Positions 32,210 to 41,625 of a stretch of 64,000 nucleotides of DNA are shown here, piece by piece. A model generated the notes under the pieces. It was not told the origin of the DNA, searched no databases, and worked only from the letters and a program-made list of their open reading frames with translations. The stretch is from Flavobacterium eburneipallidum (GTDB lineage Bacteria; Bacteroidota; Bacteroidia; Flavobacteriales; Flavobacteriaceae): positions 1,736,001 to 1,800,000 of the forward strand of contig NZ_CP114291.2 in assembly GCF_027111355.2 (NCBI RefSeq). Direction: 5' to 3'. The first letter of the stretch is position 1. Each line of letters starts with the position of its first letter. Made by a program: the position numbers and the translations under genes.

Positions 32210-35200
32210 TTATTTTAGTAATGTAAATGTTCCTTTTTCGGTTATGGTGTGATTGTAGAAAGTTTTTGCCGTAATTTTAAAATAATAATTTCCATTTTCG
32301 GCATTGATGTCTTTTACTTTTCCGTGCCAACCTCCTATGTTTTCTCCAGTTTCTGAATAGATAACTGCTCCCCAAGTATTGTAAACATCGAGTGTAATGT
32401 TTGTCAAACCTAGAAAAACAGGAGCAAATGAATCGTTTATGCCATCATTGTTGGGAGTGAAGGCATTAGGCATCATCAAGCTGTATCCTTTCTCTAGAAT
32501 CAATGTAGTAAAATAGGTATATTGACATCCAAAAGGATAAGTAACAGTTTGTTTTATGGTATAAGTTCCTTCTCTGGTATAAATATGTTTTGGATTTATT
32601 TCATCTGAAAAATTACCATCGCCAAAATCCCATGCTACAGATGTAAAATCTCCTGAGGCTAAATTGGTAAACAAAACAGGATCGTAGATAGAATATAAAT
32701 CATATACTTCTTTGCCATGGGAAGTGGTAGAGAAATTGGCTTTGCCTAAAACAGGCGTATCTACATTGTAAGGAATATTGGCTTCGCAACCAAAACTATC
32801 GGTAACGCTAAAAATTACTAGCCCATTATTTTCGGTGTTCATAATCTCGTTATTGACTCCAGTAACGGTTCCGTCAGACCATTTCAGTTTGTATGGAGGA
32901 ACACCACCTTCTACGTGGCCTATAAAGGTTTGATGTACATATTTAGTTTCGCAATCGAAATTAGTTTTTACTTCAATGGTAGGAGTCAGTTGCTTGAATC
33001 GAGTAATTTTCCAAGTTTCCGATTTTTTGCAGCCATTGGCATCGGTTACGGTTACGGTGTAATTATCGGGTGTCAAATTCACCAAATCTTCTGTTGTAGC
33101 ACCGTTTGACCAAGCGTATTTAAAAGGTTGTGTTCCGCCAGTTACTACTAAATTAATAGCTCCAGTATTGGCATTGAAACAATTTAAAGGGTTTGAAACG
33201 TCAGCTTTTAATTCTAATAACAAAGGTTCAATAATATTGAAGGTTTCTTTTATTTTACACGATTTAGCATCAGTAATGGTTACTGTATATTTGCCAGGAC
33301 CTAAATTATTTCTTTCAATTCCTGCTGTAGCATCATCATCCCAAACCAATTTTACGGGAGCTTTTCCACCGATGAGGTTCAATCGGATGTAAGCATCTTT
33401 TTCGCCAAAGCAAGAAATTTGTTTTACATCAGGATTTATGGTAAAAACAGGTGCATTGTCTATAATTATTGTAAATACTTTTGGACAACCTAAAGAATCG
33501 GTGATGGTAATGGTATAAGTTCCTGCAGTCAAATTATTTTGTACTAGTCCTGTACCTAAATTACTCCATTTTATAAGATATGGATCGCCAGTTGCAAAAG
33601 GAACTCCACCCGTAATTTTATTAATAGTAATAGAAGCATCTGCATAATTGTAACAGGCAATTTCGGTTTTGGTATAATCTAATTTTATTTCATCGTTTTG
33701 AAGTAAAATAACTTGCAGTTGATCGGTACAGCCTGAATTGTCGGTTACGGTTAAATTATAAGTTCCAGCGGCTACATTTCTTAAATTTTGAAGATTGCTT
33801 CTAAATCCGTTAGGGCCAGTCCAGCTGTATCTGTAATTGAAAACACCTGGTGAAGTTTCGGTAGCTCTTCCTCCAATGGTTTTTATATCAATTTCTCCAG
33901 TGAAATAACCGTAGCATAAAATATTTACTTGGCTTACAAGACTAACTTCTAATAATGGCGGTTCTATAATAGTATAGGTACCGGTAAGGACACCACAATT
34001 ATTAAGTTCTGTAATGGTTACATCATAAACTCCAGGCTTCAAATTAGAAAGGTCTTCGGTAGTAGCAAACGGATTTCCGTCTTTTTTCCAAACATATTTG
34101 TAAGGTTGAGTTCCTCCAGAAGCGGTTATATTAATTCTACCATCGTTTAAGCCAAAACAGCTAATGTCATTTTTGCTGGATGAAAATTGAAATAAACCAG
34201 GTTCACTAACGAAATAACTTTTCGTAAAAGGGCAATTGCCATTGTCGTTTATGCTTAAATTATAAGTCCCAGGTTTTAAGTTCGAAATATCTTCATCTGT
34301 ACTGGTAAAACCATTTGGACCAGTCCAAGATATATTGTTGGGTTTTCCAGTTGTAAAAGGAATTCCTCCTGTTACTGTAATATCAATTGAAGCATCGTTT
34401 GAACCAAAACAAGTGCTGTTTTTTTGATTCAAAGCAACTTTTATTAATGGGTCAACAGTTATGGTAATGGTAAAATTAGGCCCTGGGCAGCTTACTGATA
34501 TTGGTGAAACTGTATAAGTTACTGTAGCTGGATTATTGGTTAGGTTGGTTAAAGTTTGGCTAATGTTTGTTCTTGGAGTAGTTTGAGCTGTAGCACCGCT
34601 TATGGCTCCTGCAGGAGAAACGATTGGATTTGACCAAATATAAGTTGTTCCAGCAGGCACGTTGTCTGTTCCATTTGTAACGGGCGTAACCTGAAAAGAA
34701 TCGCCACTACACATTTTCAAGACCTTTGGTTTTATAATTGGAGAAAGTACTAAATCTACAGAGAAATTGGCCGTTTTGGTAGTTGTGCCGCAACTATTGG
34801 TAACACTAAAAGTCGCTTGATAGTTACCACTTACAGTATAATCAATTGGACCAGGATCAAGAGCGGTAGAACTAGAAGGTGTTCCGCCAGGAAAACTCCA
34901 TAAATAACTTATTTCTGAAGAAGGTGAGCAAGTTTCGGTCACTTTTCCCACAGGTCTGATGGTTGCCGAATTACAAAAATCCGAAATAGGATCTAAAGTA
35001 GTAACAGGTGGTTTTTTAACATCTATGGTTTTGGTAATTGATCGGTCAATTCCACATGAATTTCGAGTAGTAAGTCGAACATAGTAGGTGCCTGGAAGTA
35101 CAAAATTAAAAACAGGACTTTTAGAGTAATAATTTGTTCCATTAACAAAATTCCATTGTCCTCTTCCGGTTCCTGTAATAGTTTCTTTACCACAAAAACC

Positions 35201-36598
35201 TTCATAATATTGAATCACTTCCCAATAATAGCTTTCGGTTCCACAGCTTAAACGGGTGTCGGTGGTATTGGTCATTTCAACATTGGAAGAAGCACAAGCA
35301 TTGCCAAAAGTAAAATTAGGCTGCAATATAGGTTCTACACATATTGTTCTTGTAGTAGAAGTTCCAATTCCGCAAGGAGTTTGAGCCGATAATCGAATGG
35401 TATAAGTACCTGGTGTGGTATAAACGTGACTTGGGTTTACTTGTCTAGATACGGGACTTCCGTCTCCAAAATCCCAAGTATAAACATTAAAAGTACTGCA
35501 ATCATTGGTGTAACCAGCTATGGTTGTATTATTGAAGTAAACAGATGTGTTAGCGCAAACAATATTATTCACGTTAAAACTTATCGTAGGTACATCCAAA
35601 ATAATAATAGGACCTGCTGTAAGATAAGTACTTCCGCAAGAGGTGGTTATTGTTAAGCTTACAGTATTTCCAGACGGACAGTTGAAACGGGTAAAAGTAT
35701 GAGGAATAGGGAAGTTTTGAGAAGCTGGAGGATTCACTGAATTATAATACGGCGAACTTTCTAATTGCGCTTGTGTGTAACTTACAATTGTGCCGTCTCC
35801 ATAATTTACTTGGTATCTTGTGTCCGATGGATTTCTTGACCATGATCCTATAGCAAATTCCATTGGAGGAACTGGAGTACATAAATTAGTTGTATTCCCA
35901 GGAGCAATAAGAGCACCAATTGGATTATTAGAATTTTTGATGACATAAGTAACAGTGTTATTACAACTGCTACTACCTATTCCAGTAATTGTCATATTGA
36001 AAGATCCTAATTGATTATAAGTATGTGCTCTAGGGAAGCTTACATTAGTTTCAGAACTACCATCGCCCCAATCTACATTATAAGAAGTAATACAAGAAAT
36101 GGAACTAGAACTATTTCCTATATTGACTGTGTATTTAGAATCGGAATTATTATCTCCGCATTTTTCAAAAGGAGCAGTTGAGCCTGCAGGTGCATTTAAG
36201 TTGACGAACTTTAAGTCGGGTTTTTGTTGAACTGAAATTACTTTGGTCACAGAATTTGTTGCTCCATTAGCATCGGTAACAATTAATTTTACAGTAAAGT
36301 TTTGAAAGCCACAGCCCAGTGCAGTGAACGAATGTGTTGGATTACTATTGATAGAAGTTGTTCCGTCGCCAAAATCCCATTGATACTTAAAGGGTGCATC
36401 ACCACTAACTACTGGCGTAAAAGTAATTGGTGTTCCAGAGCAAGTTCCACTATTATTATAATTAAAGTCAACATTTGGAGCTAGAACTATTGTTTTATAA
36501 CTTGTATAGTTTGAAGTTATTTCTTTACTGCTAAAGGCATAAATAGAAGTAGTTACTATTAATAATAAGCTATGGGTCAGAAAAAAAAGTTTCCTCAT
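32210..36598 (-). CDS. Giant PKD/SprB-repeat surface adhesin with type B T9SS sorting domain
   Basis: A 1462-residue exported protein. After a signal peptide, the N-terminal half has PKD-type repeats (WDFGDGTTSINSNPTHSF near 75, VDWGDGSSE, TWDFGDGSPVSRQVNPSHVY near 375). Between about 735 and 1240 come six SprB-type repeats, each opening with Cys-Phe/Tyr (STCFGSNDASI, ISCFGLNDGRI, ILCYGYFTGEI, IACYNYADASI, ISCFGEKDAYI, LNCFNANTGAI), and a seventh diverged copy. A last PKD domain (AWDFGDGNFSDEINPKHIY) precedes the type B C-terminal sorting signal (MPNAFTPNNDGINDSF to the end). It would be secreted by the type IX system with help of the adjacent PorP/SprF protein and act in adhesion or gliding. 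Confidence 0.95.
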   Translation of the reverse strand: MRKLFFLTHSLLLIVTTSIYAFSSKEITSNYTSYKTIVLAPNVDFNYNNSGTCSGTPITFTPVVSGDAPFKYQWDFGDGTTSINSNPTHSFTALGCGFQNFTVKLIVTDANGATNSVTKVISVQQKPDLKFVNLNAPAGSTAPFEKCGDNNSDSKYTVNIGNSSSSISCITSYNVDWGDGSSETNVSFPRAHTYNQLGSFNMTITGIGSSSCNNTVTYVIKNSNNPIGALIAPGNTTNLCTPVPPMEFAIGSWSRNPSDTRYQVNYGDGTIVSYTQAQLESSPYYNSVNPPASQNFPIPHTFTRFNCPSGNTVSLTITTSCGSTYLTAGPIIILDVPTISFNVNNIVCANTSVYFNNTTIAGYTNDCSTFNVYTWDFGDGSPVSRQVNPSHVYTTPGTYTIRLSAQTPCGIGTSTTRTICVEPILQPNFTFGNACASSNVEMTNTTDTRLSCGTESYYWEVIQYYEGFCGKETITGTGRGQWNFVNGTNYYSKSPVFNFVLPGTYYVRLTTRNSCGIDRSITKTIDVKKPPVTTLDPISDFCNSATIRPVGKVTETCSPSSEISYLWSFPGGTPSSSTALDPGPIDYTVSGNYQATFSVTNSCGTTTKTANFSVDLVLSPIIKPKVLKMCSGDSFQVTPVTNGTDNVPAGTTYIWSNPIVSPAGAISGATAQTTPRTNISQTLTNLTNNPATVTYTVSPISVSCPGPNFTITITVDPLIKVALNQKNSTCFGSNDASIDITVTGGIPFTTGKPNNISWTGPNGFTSTDEDISNLKPGTYNLSINDNGNCPFTKSYFVSEPGLFQFSSSKNDISCFGLNDGRINITASGGTQPYKYVWKKDGNPFATTEDLSNLKPGVYDVTITELNNCGVLTGTYTIIEPPLLEVSLVSQVNILCYGYFTGEIDIKTIGGRATETSPGVFNYRYSWTGPNGFRSNLQNLRNVAAGTYNLTVTDNSGCTDQLQVILLQNDEIKLDYTKTEIACYNYADASITINKITGGVPFATGDPYLIKWSNLGTGLVQNNLTAGTYTITITDSLGCPKVFTIIIDNAPVFTINPDVKQISCFGEKDAYIRLNLIGGKAPVKLVWDDDATAGIERNNLGPGKYTVTITDAKSCKIKETFNIIEPLLLELKADVSNPLNCFNANTGAINLVVTGGTQPFKYAWSNGATTEDLVNLTPDNYTVTVTDANGCKKSETWKITRFKQLTPTIEVKTNFDCETKYVHQTFIGHVEGGVPPYKLKWSDGTVTGVNNEIMNTENNGLVIFSVTDSFGCEANIPYNVDTPVLGKANFSTTSHGKEVYDLYSIYDPVLFTNLASGDFTSVAWDFGDGNFSDEINPKHIYTREGTYTIKQTVTYPFGCQYTYFTTLILEKGYSLMMPNAFTPNNDGINDSFAPVFLGLTNITLDVYNTWGAVIYSETGENIGGWHGKVKDINAENGNYYFKITAKTFYNHTITEKGTFTLLK

Positions 36599-37860: not shown

Positions 37861-37929
37861 TGTAGAATTAATTCTACATCTATTAGTAAGTAGTTCTACA
37901 TAAAATAGGGTTCAGGCTGGTTATATTTA
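37861..37929 (+). promoter_or_regulatory. Operator/promoter array of the membrane histidine kinase gene
   Basis: TGTAG at 37861, TTCTAC at 37872, TTCTAC at 37894 and a -7-like TATATTTA at 37922-37929. The two TTCTAC sites are 22 bases apart start to start, about two helical turns, and the first is part of a perfect 18-base palindrome, TGTAGAATTAATTCTACA. The same elements recur at identical spacing upstream of the second kinase (40676-40744). An activator bound at the TTCTAC sites would sit just upstream of the polymerase site. The LuxR-type response regulator encoded at 39928 is the obvious candidate, by inference. Confidence 0.6.
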
Positions 37930-38167
37930 CAGTGTAATTCTCTATTTAGATATTGAGTTAATTTTTTTTAAAAGACTTTCCCCAAATTTCTTTTGTCTTT
38001 TTTTAATGTGAGAATTATTCATAATAGCCAATGAGTAATTATAATAAAGTAGCGATTAGTAAGCAGACAAAATAGCAGATTTTATTGGCTTTGTCTGAAT
38101 ATTAAATATCATTTAGCTTCTTGGATTTATTTTAATTCATTAACTTTAGTTTAAAAAAAAAATAATT

Positions 38168-39901
38168 TTGATTAAAAAACATTTTACAGGGAATACTTTT
38201 GATTTTAAAAGGATTAAAAACAGAAAAATAATTCATTTTTCTTTGTTGGCATGTATTATTCTTTTACAAGTTATAGCTGGAGTAATTTGGTACAATGATT
38301 CTCAAATTTCTAAAGCATTTGATCAGATGGCAACATCTAATGAAATTGAAAAGTATTCGAATCGGGCTAATAATTCTTTGATTCAATCGCAACAGTATTT
38401 TAATGATTATTTCAATCATAGAGATGAAAATTCTTTGAAAAAGTACACGACAAGCTTGAGCGAAATTAGTGGTTTGATGGATAGTTTGCGTTTGGTTTCT
38501 AACGAAAATGAGAGTTTTAAAAGAATATTGGGTGATAAAAAACAAACTGAAGCCGATATTTTAGCTCTAAAAACAGCTATCGATTCTATTATCGACAAGC
38601 AAATAGGAACGGGACATGATGATGTTTCTGAAATTTTTAAATTCAACAAGTTTGGATACAAGAAAATTTTAGACAGCGTCAAAACCGAGACTTATATAAA
38701 AGTAGATAGTGTAACTCGATATGGATTGATTTCGAGATTAGGAGATGCGTTTACAGGAAAGTATCGCATTCAAAAAGAGCGCTTGAACACCATTGTGACC
38801 ATGCAATACAAAGACAAAGTTTCGTCTGGATCTATCGAACAACAAATCAAAAATGTTTTCTTGATGAGTAATAGATATTACGAAAATGAGTTCAATAATT
38901 TGAATAAAAAATTTCTTGATTTAAGAGATAAAGACTTGAAATTAAGGAAAATTAATAGTGAATTGTTAAGCAAAGGTCAAAGTGTATTGTCTAGTTATGG
39001 TAAATTAGATAATGTACTTCAATTAAATAATAAAACGTATTTAAAAGAAGAATATAAAACGAATAAAACCATCAAAGATAGCGCGATAATTATACTGATA
39101 TTACTGATGTTTGTTATCTCCATCATACTTTTTAGTTTTACCCGAATGGCTTTTGAATACGAGAAAAAACTTGTAGTTGCTCAAAATCAAATTCGTCAAA
39201 GTCTTGCTTTTAAAAATAGAATTGTGGGCATGATAAGTCATGAAATTCGTTCACCCTTGAATATAATTTCCATTTACAGCCAAAAATTAGTGGCTACTGT
39301 TAAAGATTCAGACATAAAAGAAACGTTCAAATCGATTCTGTTTACAACCAATTCGCTAATTCTTTTGTCTAATCAAATTTTAGAGTATTCGAAAGATGAA
39401 AACCACAAACCGAAATTGAAAAACAAAAATATCAATTTAAAGAAAGAAATCGAATCAATTATTTATTCACTTACACCTTTATTAGAGGTTAAAGGAAATA
39501 AAATGGAACTGGTTTCTAATTTAGAACCCGATTGTGAAGTATATTCAGATGCTACAAAAATTCACCAACTTTTCTATAATATAATTGGTAATGCCAATAA
39601 GTTTACAGAAAATGGATTAATAGCAATTCAAGTTGTTATAGAAACGCTATCCGAATTCGAAATGAATTTGAAAGTAACCATCAAAGACAACGGATTAGGG
39701 ATTGCTCAAAATGATTTGAAAAATTTATTTGAAGCTTACTATCAAGGAACAGTTTCGGGTAAAGTAAATAATTTGGGAGTTGGTTTAGGATTAAATCTTT
39801 GCAAAGAAATTGTAGAATTATTTGATGGCGAAATCGAAGTAAAAAGTCAAGAGAACAAGGGGACGCAGGTGATTTTTAATTTGATAGTAAGCCAAGTCTA
39901 A
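38168..39901 (+). CDS. Membrane sensor histidine kinase
   Basis: A 577-residue kinase. TM1 spans about residues 24-45 and TM2 about 308-328, enclosing a roughly 260-residue extracytoplasmic domain that looks all-helical (four-helix-bundle/CHASE3-like; many Leu, Lys, Asn). The cytoplasmic part has the H-box with His358 in MISHEIRSPLN, N-box NIIGNANKFTENG, G1 DNGLGIAQNDL and G2 GVGLGLNLCKEIVELF. The start is TTG 38168: the next in-frame ATG (residue 53) would delete TM1. The response regulator gene follows after 26 bases. The signal sensed is unknown. Confidence 0.92.
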   Translation: MIKKHFTGNTFDFKRIKNRKIIHFSLLACIILLQVIAGVIWYNDSQISKAFDQMATSNEIEKYSNRANNSLIQSQQYFNDYFNHRDENSLKKYTTSLSEISGLMDSLRLVSNENESFKRILGDKKQTEADILALKTAIDSIIDKQIGTGHDDVSEIFKFNKFGYKKILDSVKTETYIKVDSVTRYGLISRLGDAFTGKYRIQKERLNTIVTMQYKDKVSSGSIEQQIKNVFLMSNRYYENEFNNLNKKFLDLRDKDLKLRKINSELLSKGQSVLSSYGKLDNVLQLNNKTYLKEEYKTNKTIKDSAIIILILLMFVISIILFSFTRMAFEYEKKLVVAQNQIRQSLAFKNRIVGMISHEIRSPLNIISIYSQKLVATVKDSDIKETFKSILFTTNSLILLSNQILEYSKDENHKPKLKNKNINLKKEIESIIYSLTPLLEVKGNKMELVSNLEPDCEVYSDATKIHQLFYNIIGNANKFTENGLIAIQVVIETLSEFEMNLKVTIKDNGLGIAQNDLKNLFEAYYQGTVSGKVNNLGVGLGLNLCKEIVELFDGEIEVKSQENKGTQVIFNLIVSQV

Positions 39902-39927
39902 CAAAAATAAAACCAAGAATTAGTAAA

Positions 39928-40572
39928 ATGAAATCATCAAATAAACATAGTTTTTTAATTGCCGACGACCATATTGTAGTAAGGCAAGGGGTTTCTTTAT
40001 TAATTAAAGAACTTTTTCAAAATCCTATTATTTATCAAGCAGGAAGTTTTAAAGATACTTTCAAAATACTGAACGAAACCCCAATTGATTTATTGGTTTT
40101 AGACATCAATTTTCCGGATGGCAATAGTTTAAACATTATTGCTGATGTAAAAAATATTCAACCCAAAATCAAAATTTTAATATTTTCAGGCTATGATGAA
40201 GATATTTATGCCATGCGTTATTTGAATGCCGGAGCTTCAGGTTACTTGAACAAAGGAAGTTCAGAAGAGGAAATGAAACAAGCACTGCAAAGCATGTTTG
40301 TATCTGGAAAATATATTACCCAAAAAATAAAAGATCGAATTCTAGATTCTTATATTTCCAAAACCCCTATTAATCCTTTGGAGCAATTATCAAACCGAGA
40401 AGTTGAAGTGGCCAGATTGCTAATCAAGGGATATGGAAACCTAGAAATATCCGAGCTTTTACAAGTAAAAAAAACTACCGTAAGTACCTTTAAAAATAGA
40501 ATTTTCGAAAAATTAGAAATTGACAATCTCGCTTCATTGATAGAAATTTTTCATTTGTATTTCGAAGATTGA
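39928..40572 (+). CDS. LuxR/NarL-type response regulator
   Basis: A 214-residue two-component response regulator. The receiver domain has the acidic pocket (IADDH, residues 11-15), phospho-acceptor Asp59 in VLDINFPDG and Lys near 107 in YLNKGSSEEE. The C-terminal NarL/FixJ helix-turn-helix (LSNREVEVARLLIKGYGNLE, then KKTTVSTFKNRIFEKL) binds DNA as a dimer. It is encoded 26 bases after the membrane kinase and is its likely partner. Two promoters with shared TTCTAC direct repeats flank the pair, so it may control both kinase genes. Length and key residues are normal. Confidence 0.93.
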   Translation: MKSSNKHSFLIADDHIVVRQGVSLLIKELFQNPIIYQAGSFKDTFKILNETPIDLLVLDINFPDGNSLNIIADVKNIQPKIKILIFSGYDEDIYAMRYLNAGASGYLNKGSSEEEMKQALQSMFVSGKYITQKIKDRILDSYISKTPINPLEQLSNREVEVARLLIKGYGNLEISELLQVKKTTVSTFKNRIFEKLEIDNLASLIEIFHLYFED

Positions 40573-40675
40573 AATTATTTTTACTCTTGCTTTCAACATT
40601 CTTATCAGTCTGAAAAATCCTTTTCTATTTAGATACTTATAAATAGGAATCAATTATTTTTTTTTAAGTTTTTTC

Positions 40676-40744
40676 TGTAGATACAATTCTACTAATCCTT
40701 GTTGTATGTTCTACGAATAGTTGGTTTTGTTGGGGGTATATTTG
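40676..40744 (+). promoter_or_regulatory. Operator/promoter array of the soluble histidine kinase gene
   Basis: TGTAG at 40676, TTCTAC at 40687, TTCTAC at 40709 and an exact -7 box TATATTTG at 40737-40744. The order and every spacing (11, 22, 28 bases start to start) equal those of the array at 37861. The transcript would start near 40750, giving a leader of about 115 bases. The preceding 40573-40675 stretch shows no terminator with a clear stem, so some read-through from the response regulator gene is possible. Confidence 0.62.
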
Positions 40745-40866
40745 TAATACAACCAATGAGGATAGCGTTTTATTGCAATGTTAAAGAAAGAAATTTTTAC
40801 TAAATTTTTCATTTTTAGCTTATTTCACAAAAGCGATTAAAATTTTATTCTAAAACTAAAAACAGT

Positions 40867-41625
40867 ATGATAATAGATTTTTATAATATTGAAAATAAGG
40901 AAATTACAAATAAAAATTACAAGAAATTGTTAGAAATGATAGAAGCCCAAAGTGAATACAATCAAAGATTGGTTAATTTTTCTTATATCGTTTCTCATAA
41001 TTTGAATTCACATGCTGGCAATATCAAAGGACTTTTGGATATGATTGATTCAGATGAAAAACAATTAGAAAATTCAGAAGCTTTAAGTTATTTGCGAATG
41101 GTTTCAAACGATTTGAATGAAACAATTGCTAATTTAGCTCAAATAGTTCATGTCCAAAACAACTTGAATGTTTGCAAAGAACCCTTGGATTTGAATCTAT
41201 TTATCGAAAAAAACAAAAATATAATCAATAATCATGACCATGATAACAAAGCTATTATCATCAACAATGTAGCCAAGGAAACTGTTATTAATTTTAACCC
41301 TGCTTATCTCGAAAGTATTCTTTTGAATTTCAGTACAAATGCCATAAAATATGCTCATCCCGATAGATTTCCTATAATTGAGTTTAATTTTTTTATAGAA
41401 AACGGTAAGAAAGTATTAACCATTAAAGACAATGGTTTGGGGATTGACCTAGAAAAATATGGTGATTTATTATTTGGAATGTATAAAACCTTTCACAAAC
41501 ACGAAAAAGCAAATGGAATAGGCTTGTATATTACCAAAAATCAAGTCGAAGCTATGAATGGAAAAATAACGGTTGAAAGTAAAGTAGGAGTAGGAAGTAC
41601 ATTTAAAATTATTTTTTCAGACTAA
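40867..41625 (+). CDS. Soluble histidine kinase without sensor domain
   Basis: A 252-residue kinase consisting of little more than the dimerisation and ATPase domains. After a short helix (NYKKLLEMIEAQSEYNQ) comes the H-box with His44 in VSHNLNSHAGNIKG, then N-box FSTNAIKYAHPD, G1 DNGLGIDLEKYG, F-box MYKTFHKHEKANGIGL and G2. There is no membrane segment, PAS, GAF or receiver domain, so it may receive its signal from another protein. Its promoter copies the operator layout of the neighbouring membrane kinase, which suggests it is a regulated member of the same circuit. Confidence 0.88.
   Translation: MIIDFYNIENKEITNKNYKKLLEMIEAQSEYNQRLVNFSYIVSHNLNSHAGNIKGLLDMIDSDEKQLENSEALSYLRMVSNDLNETIANLAQIVHVQNNLNVCKEPLDLNLFIEKNKNIINNHDHDNKAIIINNVAKETVINFNPAYLESILLNFSTNAIKYAHPDRFPIIEFNFFIENGKKVLTIKDNGLGIDLEKYGDLLFGMYKTFHKHEKANGIGLYITKNQVEAMNGKITVESKVGVGSTFKIIFSD

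Follow-up and report, generated by a model that had tools for sequence, protein, structure and literature searches.

An operator of fixed geometry precedes two histidine kinase genes of Flavobacterium eburneipallidum and is probably read by the response regulator encoded between them

We analyzed a 64,000-nucleotide stretch of the Flavobacterium eburneipallidum genome (hereafter the window; GCF_027111355.2, NZ_CP114291.2, positions 1736001-1800000 of the 3.85-Mb single-contig genome), in which two histidine kinase genes flank a response regulator gene and each kinase gene is preceded by the same short sequence elements, here treated as a putative operator (Table 1). Both domains of the regulator scored above their cut-offs (Response_reg, 67.6 bits; GerE, 51.8 bits). 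In an alignment of 78 rows, the phospho-acceptor Asp and the conserved Lys of its receiver were invariant, and the recognition-helix region was nearly constant among the closer orthologues. Kinase 1 is probably a membrane protein, since two hydrophobic stretches can be recognized in it by eye.

Table 1. Genes and predicted operator elements at the kinase-regulator locus (window coordinates; aa, amino acids)
Feature	Position	Strand	Remark
Operator 1, distal perfect 18-bp palindrome TGTAGAATTAATTCTACA	37861..37878	+	0 mismatches to TGTAGAAN4TTCTACA; upstream of kinase 1 also in relatives
Operator 1, proximal half-site TTCTACA	37894..37900	+	about -40 to -34; offset +33 conserved
Operator 1, -7 promoter box TATATTTA	37922..37929	+	one base off TAnnTTTG; offset +61 conserved
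Histidine kinase 1, 577 aa, HisKA + HATPase_c	38168..39901	+	domain search
NarL/FixJ-type response regulator, 214 aa, receiver + GerE helix-turn-helix	39928..40572	+	putative operator binder
Operator 2, distal imperfect palindrome TGTAGATACAATTCTACT	40676..40693	+	2 mismatches
Operator 2, proximal half-site TTCTACG	40709..40715	+	read directly
Operator 2, -7 promoter box TATATTTG	40737..40744	+	exact TAnnTTTG match
Histidine kinase 2, 252 aa, HATPase_c only	40867..41625	+	domain search

The full pattern, TGTAG-N6-TTCTAC-N16-TTCTAC-N22-TAnnTTT(G/A), was found at 37861-37929 and 40676-40744, and its start-to-start spacings of 11, 22 and 28 bases are identical in both copies. Direct reading thus bore out what a sequence-only reading of the window had reported. 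The box pattern TAnnTTTG given there fits site 2 exactly, while site 1 ends in TATATTTA and deviates by one base. TGTAG and the first TTCTAC form the arms of an 18-bp inverted repeat, and the third element is a lone half-site. The plain direct-repeat operator proposed by the same reading was ruled out, because the first two elements are palindromic and a profile of 107 sites (see below) shows no conserved left arm for the second site; the actual layout is a palindrome plus one half-site. Both sites have a long leader from the -7 box to the start codon, of 238 bases (37930-38167) and 122 bases (40745-40866).

The arrangement is rare. Within the window, the two operators are the only places where TTCTAC-N16-TTCTAC occurs, and none of 100 dinucleotide shuffles contained it. 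A genome-wide search for the full pattern, as suggested by the sequence-only reading, returned three matches with up to three mismatches and none for the reversed control; the third copy lies outside the window. Of the 46 free positions, 19 are identical between operators 1 and 2, and the 100-base flanks match at 30/100 and 32/100. Since spacers and flanks are this dissimilar, recent duplication is unlikely, in agreement with the earlier argument for selection rather than duplication. Chance or recent duplication as the source of the shared elements has nothing in its favor beyond the AT-rich sequence; given the shuffle and reversed-pattern controls, the dissimilar surroundings and the conservation across the genus described below, we consider its probability negligible. 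Two near-palindromes at 1861878 and 3276621 (one mismatch each) were rejected as candidates: they lie inside open reading frames (ORFs) and are absent from the full-pattern matches. Palindromes with two mismatches are near background in the genome (46 versus 35 for the reversed control, per strand). A further TTCTAC-N16-TTCTAC match, L004, was set aside; it overlaps a long opposite-strand ORF and has no -7 box in range.

The geometry was analyzed in 78 non-redundant regulator loci, which were searched for the palindrome TGTAGAA-N4-TTCTACA alone. The regulator neighborhoods comprised 60 stretches from part of the 137 regulator-positive genomes introduced below, none weaker than about E 1e-65, and 63 named loci, some from distant relatives, were added; ten plus nine further stretches were read for target genes only and stand outside the 78-locus count. 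With up to one mismatch, the palindrome was detected in 47/65 regions upstream of kinase 1 and in 50/78 downstream of the regulator (ten-shuffle means, 0.1 and 0.0); with up to two, the counts were 51/65 and 56/78 (shuffle means, 0.6 and 0.7). In these 51 and 56 anchored regions, TAnnTTTG was located at +61 in 27 and 45 cases (72/107), compared to means of 0.13 and 0.02 and maxima of 2 and 1 at other offsets. Similarly, TTCTACA with up to two mismatches was located at +33 in 38/51 and 47/56 regions (other offsets: means, 1.3 and 0.9; maxima, 10 and 6). A count over 109 anchored regions, which also took in regions upstream of regulators lacking kinase 1, gave distances of exactly 33 and 28 in 62 and a one-base deviation at one or both in 20 more, so that 82/109 regions preserve the distances among palindrome, half-site and -7 box with a deviation of at most one base. 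For the regulators without a neighboring kinase 1, the palindrome (up to three mismatches) was present upstream in 2/13 regions.

The profile of 107 non-redundant sites (from 168) reads TGTAGAA-nnAR-TTCTACA, 13 free bases, T-R-TTCTACA, and TAnnTTTG, after which T or C is the usual next base. These sites were chosen by pattern, which inflates the specified positions; anchoring by the palindrome alone is the less biased test. In the transcriptome of F. psychrophilum, the -7 box (TAnnTTTG) is placed at -12 to -5 (PMC9723704). On the scale of this other Flavobacterium species, the palindrome extends from -73 to -56 and the half-site from -40 to -34. The half-site occupies the usual place of the -33 element; of such an element itself, the profile shows only a weak T/G preference near -27/-26, between half-site and -7 box.

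Co-occurrence of site and regulator was analyzed in 398 Flavobacterium genomes, a sample of the larger genus. A regulator match at E<=1e-35 was obtained in 137 genomes and a site with up to three mismatches in 84; the reversed control, by our reading, gave one match in each of 14 genomes. Environmental species with the system include F. hibernum and F. chilense. A site with up to three mismatches is present in every one of the 39 genomes whose regulator orthologue is close (E<=1e-90). Conversely, an exact site occurs in 25 genomes, and all of these except G359 (24 of 25) possess an orthologue at E<=1e-60; this level stands for E below 1e-59 and takes in G275 (1.7e-60) and G340 (2.1e-60). Among the 41 genomes that contain a site with up to one mismatch, all but G155 and G359 (39 of 41) gave a regulator match at E<=1e-35, and 48 of the 63 sites of this class are located within 5 kb of the regulator gene. 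The TTCTAC pair and its spacing, on whose conservation in relatives the sequence-only reading had staked its proposal, are conserved across the genus.

Several further observations concern unusual matches. Operators without a close regulator are L163 (G359, 5.8e-26), which precedes an NtrC-like regulator gene, L162/L272 (G237, 1.3e-49), behind which no same-strand ORF of at least 100 aa starts for 6.7 kb, and L166 (G155, 3.0e-28); some of the operators in such genomes may be relics. In L192 (Flavobacterium sp. Root420), two regulator copies share one locus, with an operator after each. Three-mismatch matches at G328:C34:70760-74991, G274:C15:575784-576607 and G369:C30:162158-162978 recur about every 755 bases and are probably repeats inside genes; they were kept in the genome tallies. 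A stricter search, with the first three elements exact and no -7 box, matched 6/150 relatives, the genome studied here included. Two of the six, the genus members G005 and G013, have TAAATTTG at the same distance, and three from another family do not. L030, L031 and L032 (G107, G126 and G118; same order, other family) contain TGTAG-N6-TTCTAC-N16-TTCTAC with no -7 box at the fixed distance, and behind the sites of L031 and L032 lie genes for secreted-looking proteins of the 'VG(I/V)(G/N)T...D(V/I)NG' type. These elements and proteins suggest that a looser version of the operator system may exist outside the family.

Next to the kinase operons, surface-protein operons emerged as candidate targets. 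The third genomic site, at 1646456-1646524 on the minus strand, has 0 mismatches. It is followed on one strand by a 181-aa ORF (starting about 488 bases after the site, with a secretion-signal-like start as read by eye), a 5,564-aa ORF, a 301-aa protein of the PorP/SprF family (TIGR03519, 299.8 bits; cut-off, 90.55) and a 645-aa OmpA-like protein, whose best match (CHU_0125 OmpA, 454.8) is below the family cut-off of 620. The 5,564-aa protein has SprB repeats in its first 1,796 residues (PF13573, 44.7 bits; cut-off, 28). Its C terminus matches the type B sorting domain of the type IX secretion system (T9SS) weakly (TIGR04131), with 29.2 bits below the cut-off of 35; in the modules of G216 and G158, this domain reached 37.1 and 38.9 bits.

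The first ORF behind each of the 63 sites with up to one mismatch (41 genomes) was classified by best match. This ORF was kinase 1 at 11 sites and kinase 2 at 9. Eight sites precede a member of a 'VGIGT' surface-protein family, 7 a 110-131-aa protein and 6 a 123-159-aa protein that was read as a degenerate receiver. An outer-membrane beta-barrel and a 117-140-aa protein were each found twice, and an NtrC-like regulator once (G359; a 25% match only, tallied as a response-regulator match). Three sites, one of which lies at a contig end, have no ORF within 1.1 kb, and 14 first ORFs were of other kinds. These 14 comprise the 181-aa ORF described above, long proteins from six genomes (611 to 2,381 residues, some truncated where a contig or stretch ends), a 162-aa ORF in G031 resembling the beginning of kinase 2, two small ORFs of doubtful status ahead of kinases 1 and 2 in G454, and four targets unconnected to the kinase and surface-protein picture (G314, G376, G087 and G228). 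A simple ORF script served to call the target genes, and a few first ORFs, such as the 82-83-aa ORFs of G454, are doubtful.

Surface-type domains (collagen, Ig-like, HYR, CshA and DUF11) scored above the cut-off in several of the long targets; in the same domain scan, none was detected in L164 and none above the cut-off in L160. PorP/SprF genes are located downstream on the same strand in G334, G216, G158, G246 and G277. The 418-aa protein before PorP in G277 matched the type B domain with 32.1 bits (cut-off, 35), and its G246 counterpart gave no match. In the long targets of G421 and G062, a type C sorting signal was matched, once below and once above the cut-off. The small 123-159-aa proteins behind operators (L095:6509-6988 and L166:5185-5556, both on the minus strand, and relatives) appear receiver-like by eye with the usual acidic site missing; a Pfam match for the L166 protein was not obtained. 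Near the kinase locus, the window also encodes a 1,462-aa protein (32210-36598, minus strand) in which a type B sorting domain of the T9SS scored 40.9 bits (cut-off, 35), and the genome-wide pattern search with up to three mismatches found no full operator match near it.

Since many relatives have the operator next to the gene of one regulator, and since it also precedes giant surface-protein genes, it is probably the binding site of that regulator. We give a probability of roughly 0.8 to the reading that operators 1 and 2 represent one module for the regulator encoded between them, which would activate its own operon, kinase 2 and T9SS surface-adhesin operons. As part of this, binding of the operators by the regulator is very likely as judged from the sequence comparisons, and activation as the sign of regulation is likely. 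The earlier proposal that the two kinase genes share an operator of the LuxR/NarL-type regulator between them is most likely correct in light of the genus-wide co-occurrence and linkage. The circuit it sketched, with an autoregulated kinase-regulator pair and kinase 2 as a putative target, was retained in these parts but had to be widened, because the predicted targets are not confined to two kinases and include surface-protein operons.

A number of results weigh against this reading. An orthologue with E below 1e-59 is present in 76 genomes, of which 28 lack a site with up to two mismatches and 14 lack one with up to three; vice versa, 22 of the 84 genomes with a site of up to three mismatches have no such orthologue. 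The Fisher P values for the co-occurrence of site and regulator (1e-18 to 1e-40) ignore common ancestry. The palindrome, even with three mismatches allowed, was not found in 9/65 upstream and 18/78 downstream regions, and the distances are off by more than one base in 15/109 anchored regions and unresolved in 12. G155 and G359 have sites with up to one mismatch, and their best regulator matches are just 3.0e-28 and 5.8e-26. Such good sites in genomes with no clear orthologue would fit recognition of the operator by another DNA-binding protein, with an indirect linkage to the regulator gene. We regard this as very unlikely, considering the strong linkage and co-occurrence, the conserved recognition region of the regulator and the GerE domain, which presumably suits an inverted repeat with TGTA/TACA ends.

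Finally, a half-site over the -33 region could also serve repression. The same regulator would then bind and repress its own operon by blocking the polymerase, in keeping with the position of the proximal half-site at the place of the -33 element. This autorepression is unlikely, although less so than another binding protein: the element distances kept to within one base suit contact with the polymerase, and the related regulators VraR and DevR, according to the sources cited below, activate with the help of an additional, weaker site that lies at -35 or close to it.

Among solved structures, the regulator is closest in sequence to VraR of Staphylococcus aureus, a NarL-family protein; mycobacterial DevR/DosR, of the NarL subfamily, is also among the nearest. 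VraR belongs to an autoregulated kinase-regulator operon, vraSR. In the vraSR promoter, R1 is the distal site. As described in PMC6612188, R1 is conserved and is accompanied by a less conserved site R2 at -46 to -26, which is bound only by phosphorylated VraR. DevR, according to PMC3029386, binds cooperatively to a primary site and to a neighboring one of low affinity, and the proximal site overlaps the -35 element. The layout of the Flavobacterium module resembles these two promoters, which rely on a stronger site plus a weaker one at or near -35. It differs from the VraR system in operator sequence (described as two tandem sequences for VraR), promoter type and regulon (cell-wall stress rather than surface adhesins), and from the DevR system in operator, the actinobacterial promoter and the dormancy regulon.

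According to the activation reading, kinase 1 would phosphorylate the regulator, and the palindrome (18 bp, -73 to -56) would be bound by a regulator dimer. The lone TTCTACA half-site, which lies two helical turns further downstream at -40 to -34, would anchor a second dimer; this dimer would be placed next to or over the -33 region and would recruit sigma-A RNA polymerase at the TAnnTTTG box. The active regulator would thereby raise expression of its own kinase-regulator operon, switch on kinase 2, and switch on the operon for the giant SprB-repeat surface protein with its PorP/SprF and OmpA-like partners.

Kinase 2 had been described as a sensor-less second kinase. Indeed, no PAS domain was detected by the domain search in the kinase 2 of the window. 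This is probably a local shortening and not a trait of the family, because 28 of 37 different homologues (>50% identity over >200 residues) are longer (383-525 aa); 9 are short (232-277 aa), one of them (L152) on a 4.4-kb contig with a perhaps split ORF. The H, N and G boxes are largely conserved among the 37. The nearest homologue, from Flavobacterium sp. AED (L173), has 504 aa and a PAS_3 domain; it was the sole long homologue scanned. In a quick tree with three short/long changes, the short form of the window groups with the long L173 protein (support of 81, not strong), and its shortening therefore looks separate from that of a seven-member short clade.

Within the phylum, the two-component system FimS/FimR of Porphyromonas gingivalis activates fimbrial adhesin genes, FimR binding the promoter directly (PMC1974823). 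Surface adhesin genes are its targets, as is predicted for the module described here; unlike that module, FimS/FimR targets fimbriae and not T9SS type B proteins, and by the NCBIfam cut-off the kinases studied here are outside the FimS family. HK_Porph_FimS scored 43.5 bits (cut-off, 600) for the long kinase-2 homologue of L173 and was not among the best 25 families for kinases 1 and 2 of the window. In Flavobacterium johnsoniae, SprF binds SprB (PMC9143113). Some target operons likewise pair a large repeat protein, with a weak or full type B match, with a PorP/SprF protein. They differ in that they are located behind the operator and contain an additional OmpA-like protein, and a role in gliding is not implied.

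In the titles and abstract beginnings of the open-licence literature, we found no description of this operator or of the operator of any Flavobacterium two-component regulator. Sequence comparison alone yielded a putative binding site, its geometry, the regulator and candidate targets in the 41 genomes with sites of up to one mismatch. We consider it more probable than its opposite that Flavobacterium has a dedicated two-component system for the control of entire T9SS adhesin modules (giant surface protein, PorP/SprF anchor and OmpA-like protein), along with the kinase and regulator of the system itself and an accessory kinase. Control would be exerted through a rigid operator of palindrome and half-site that replaces the -33 element, and this would amount to a genus-wide, readable cis-code for the regulation of surface adhesins. 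Such a system would link a sensor to T9SS-associated surface proteins, its operator would predict the genes under control of the regulator, and it would provide a clean case for the action of an activator at Bacteroidota promoters.

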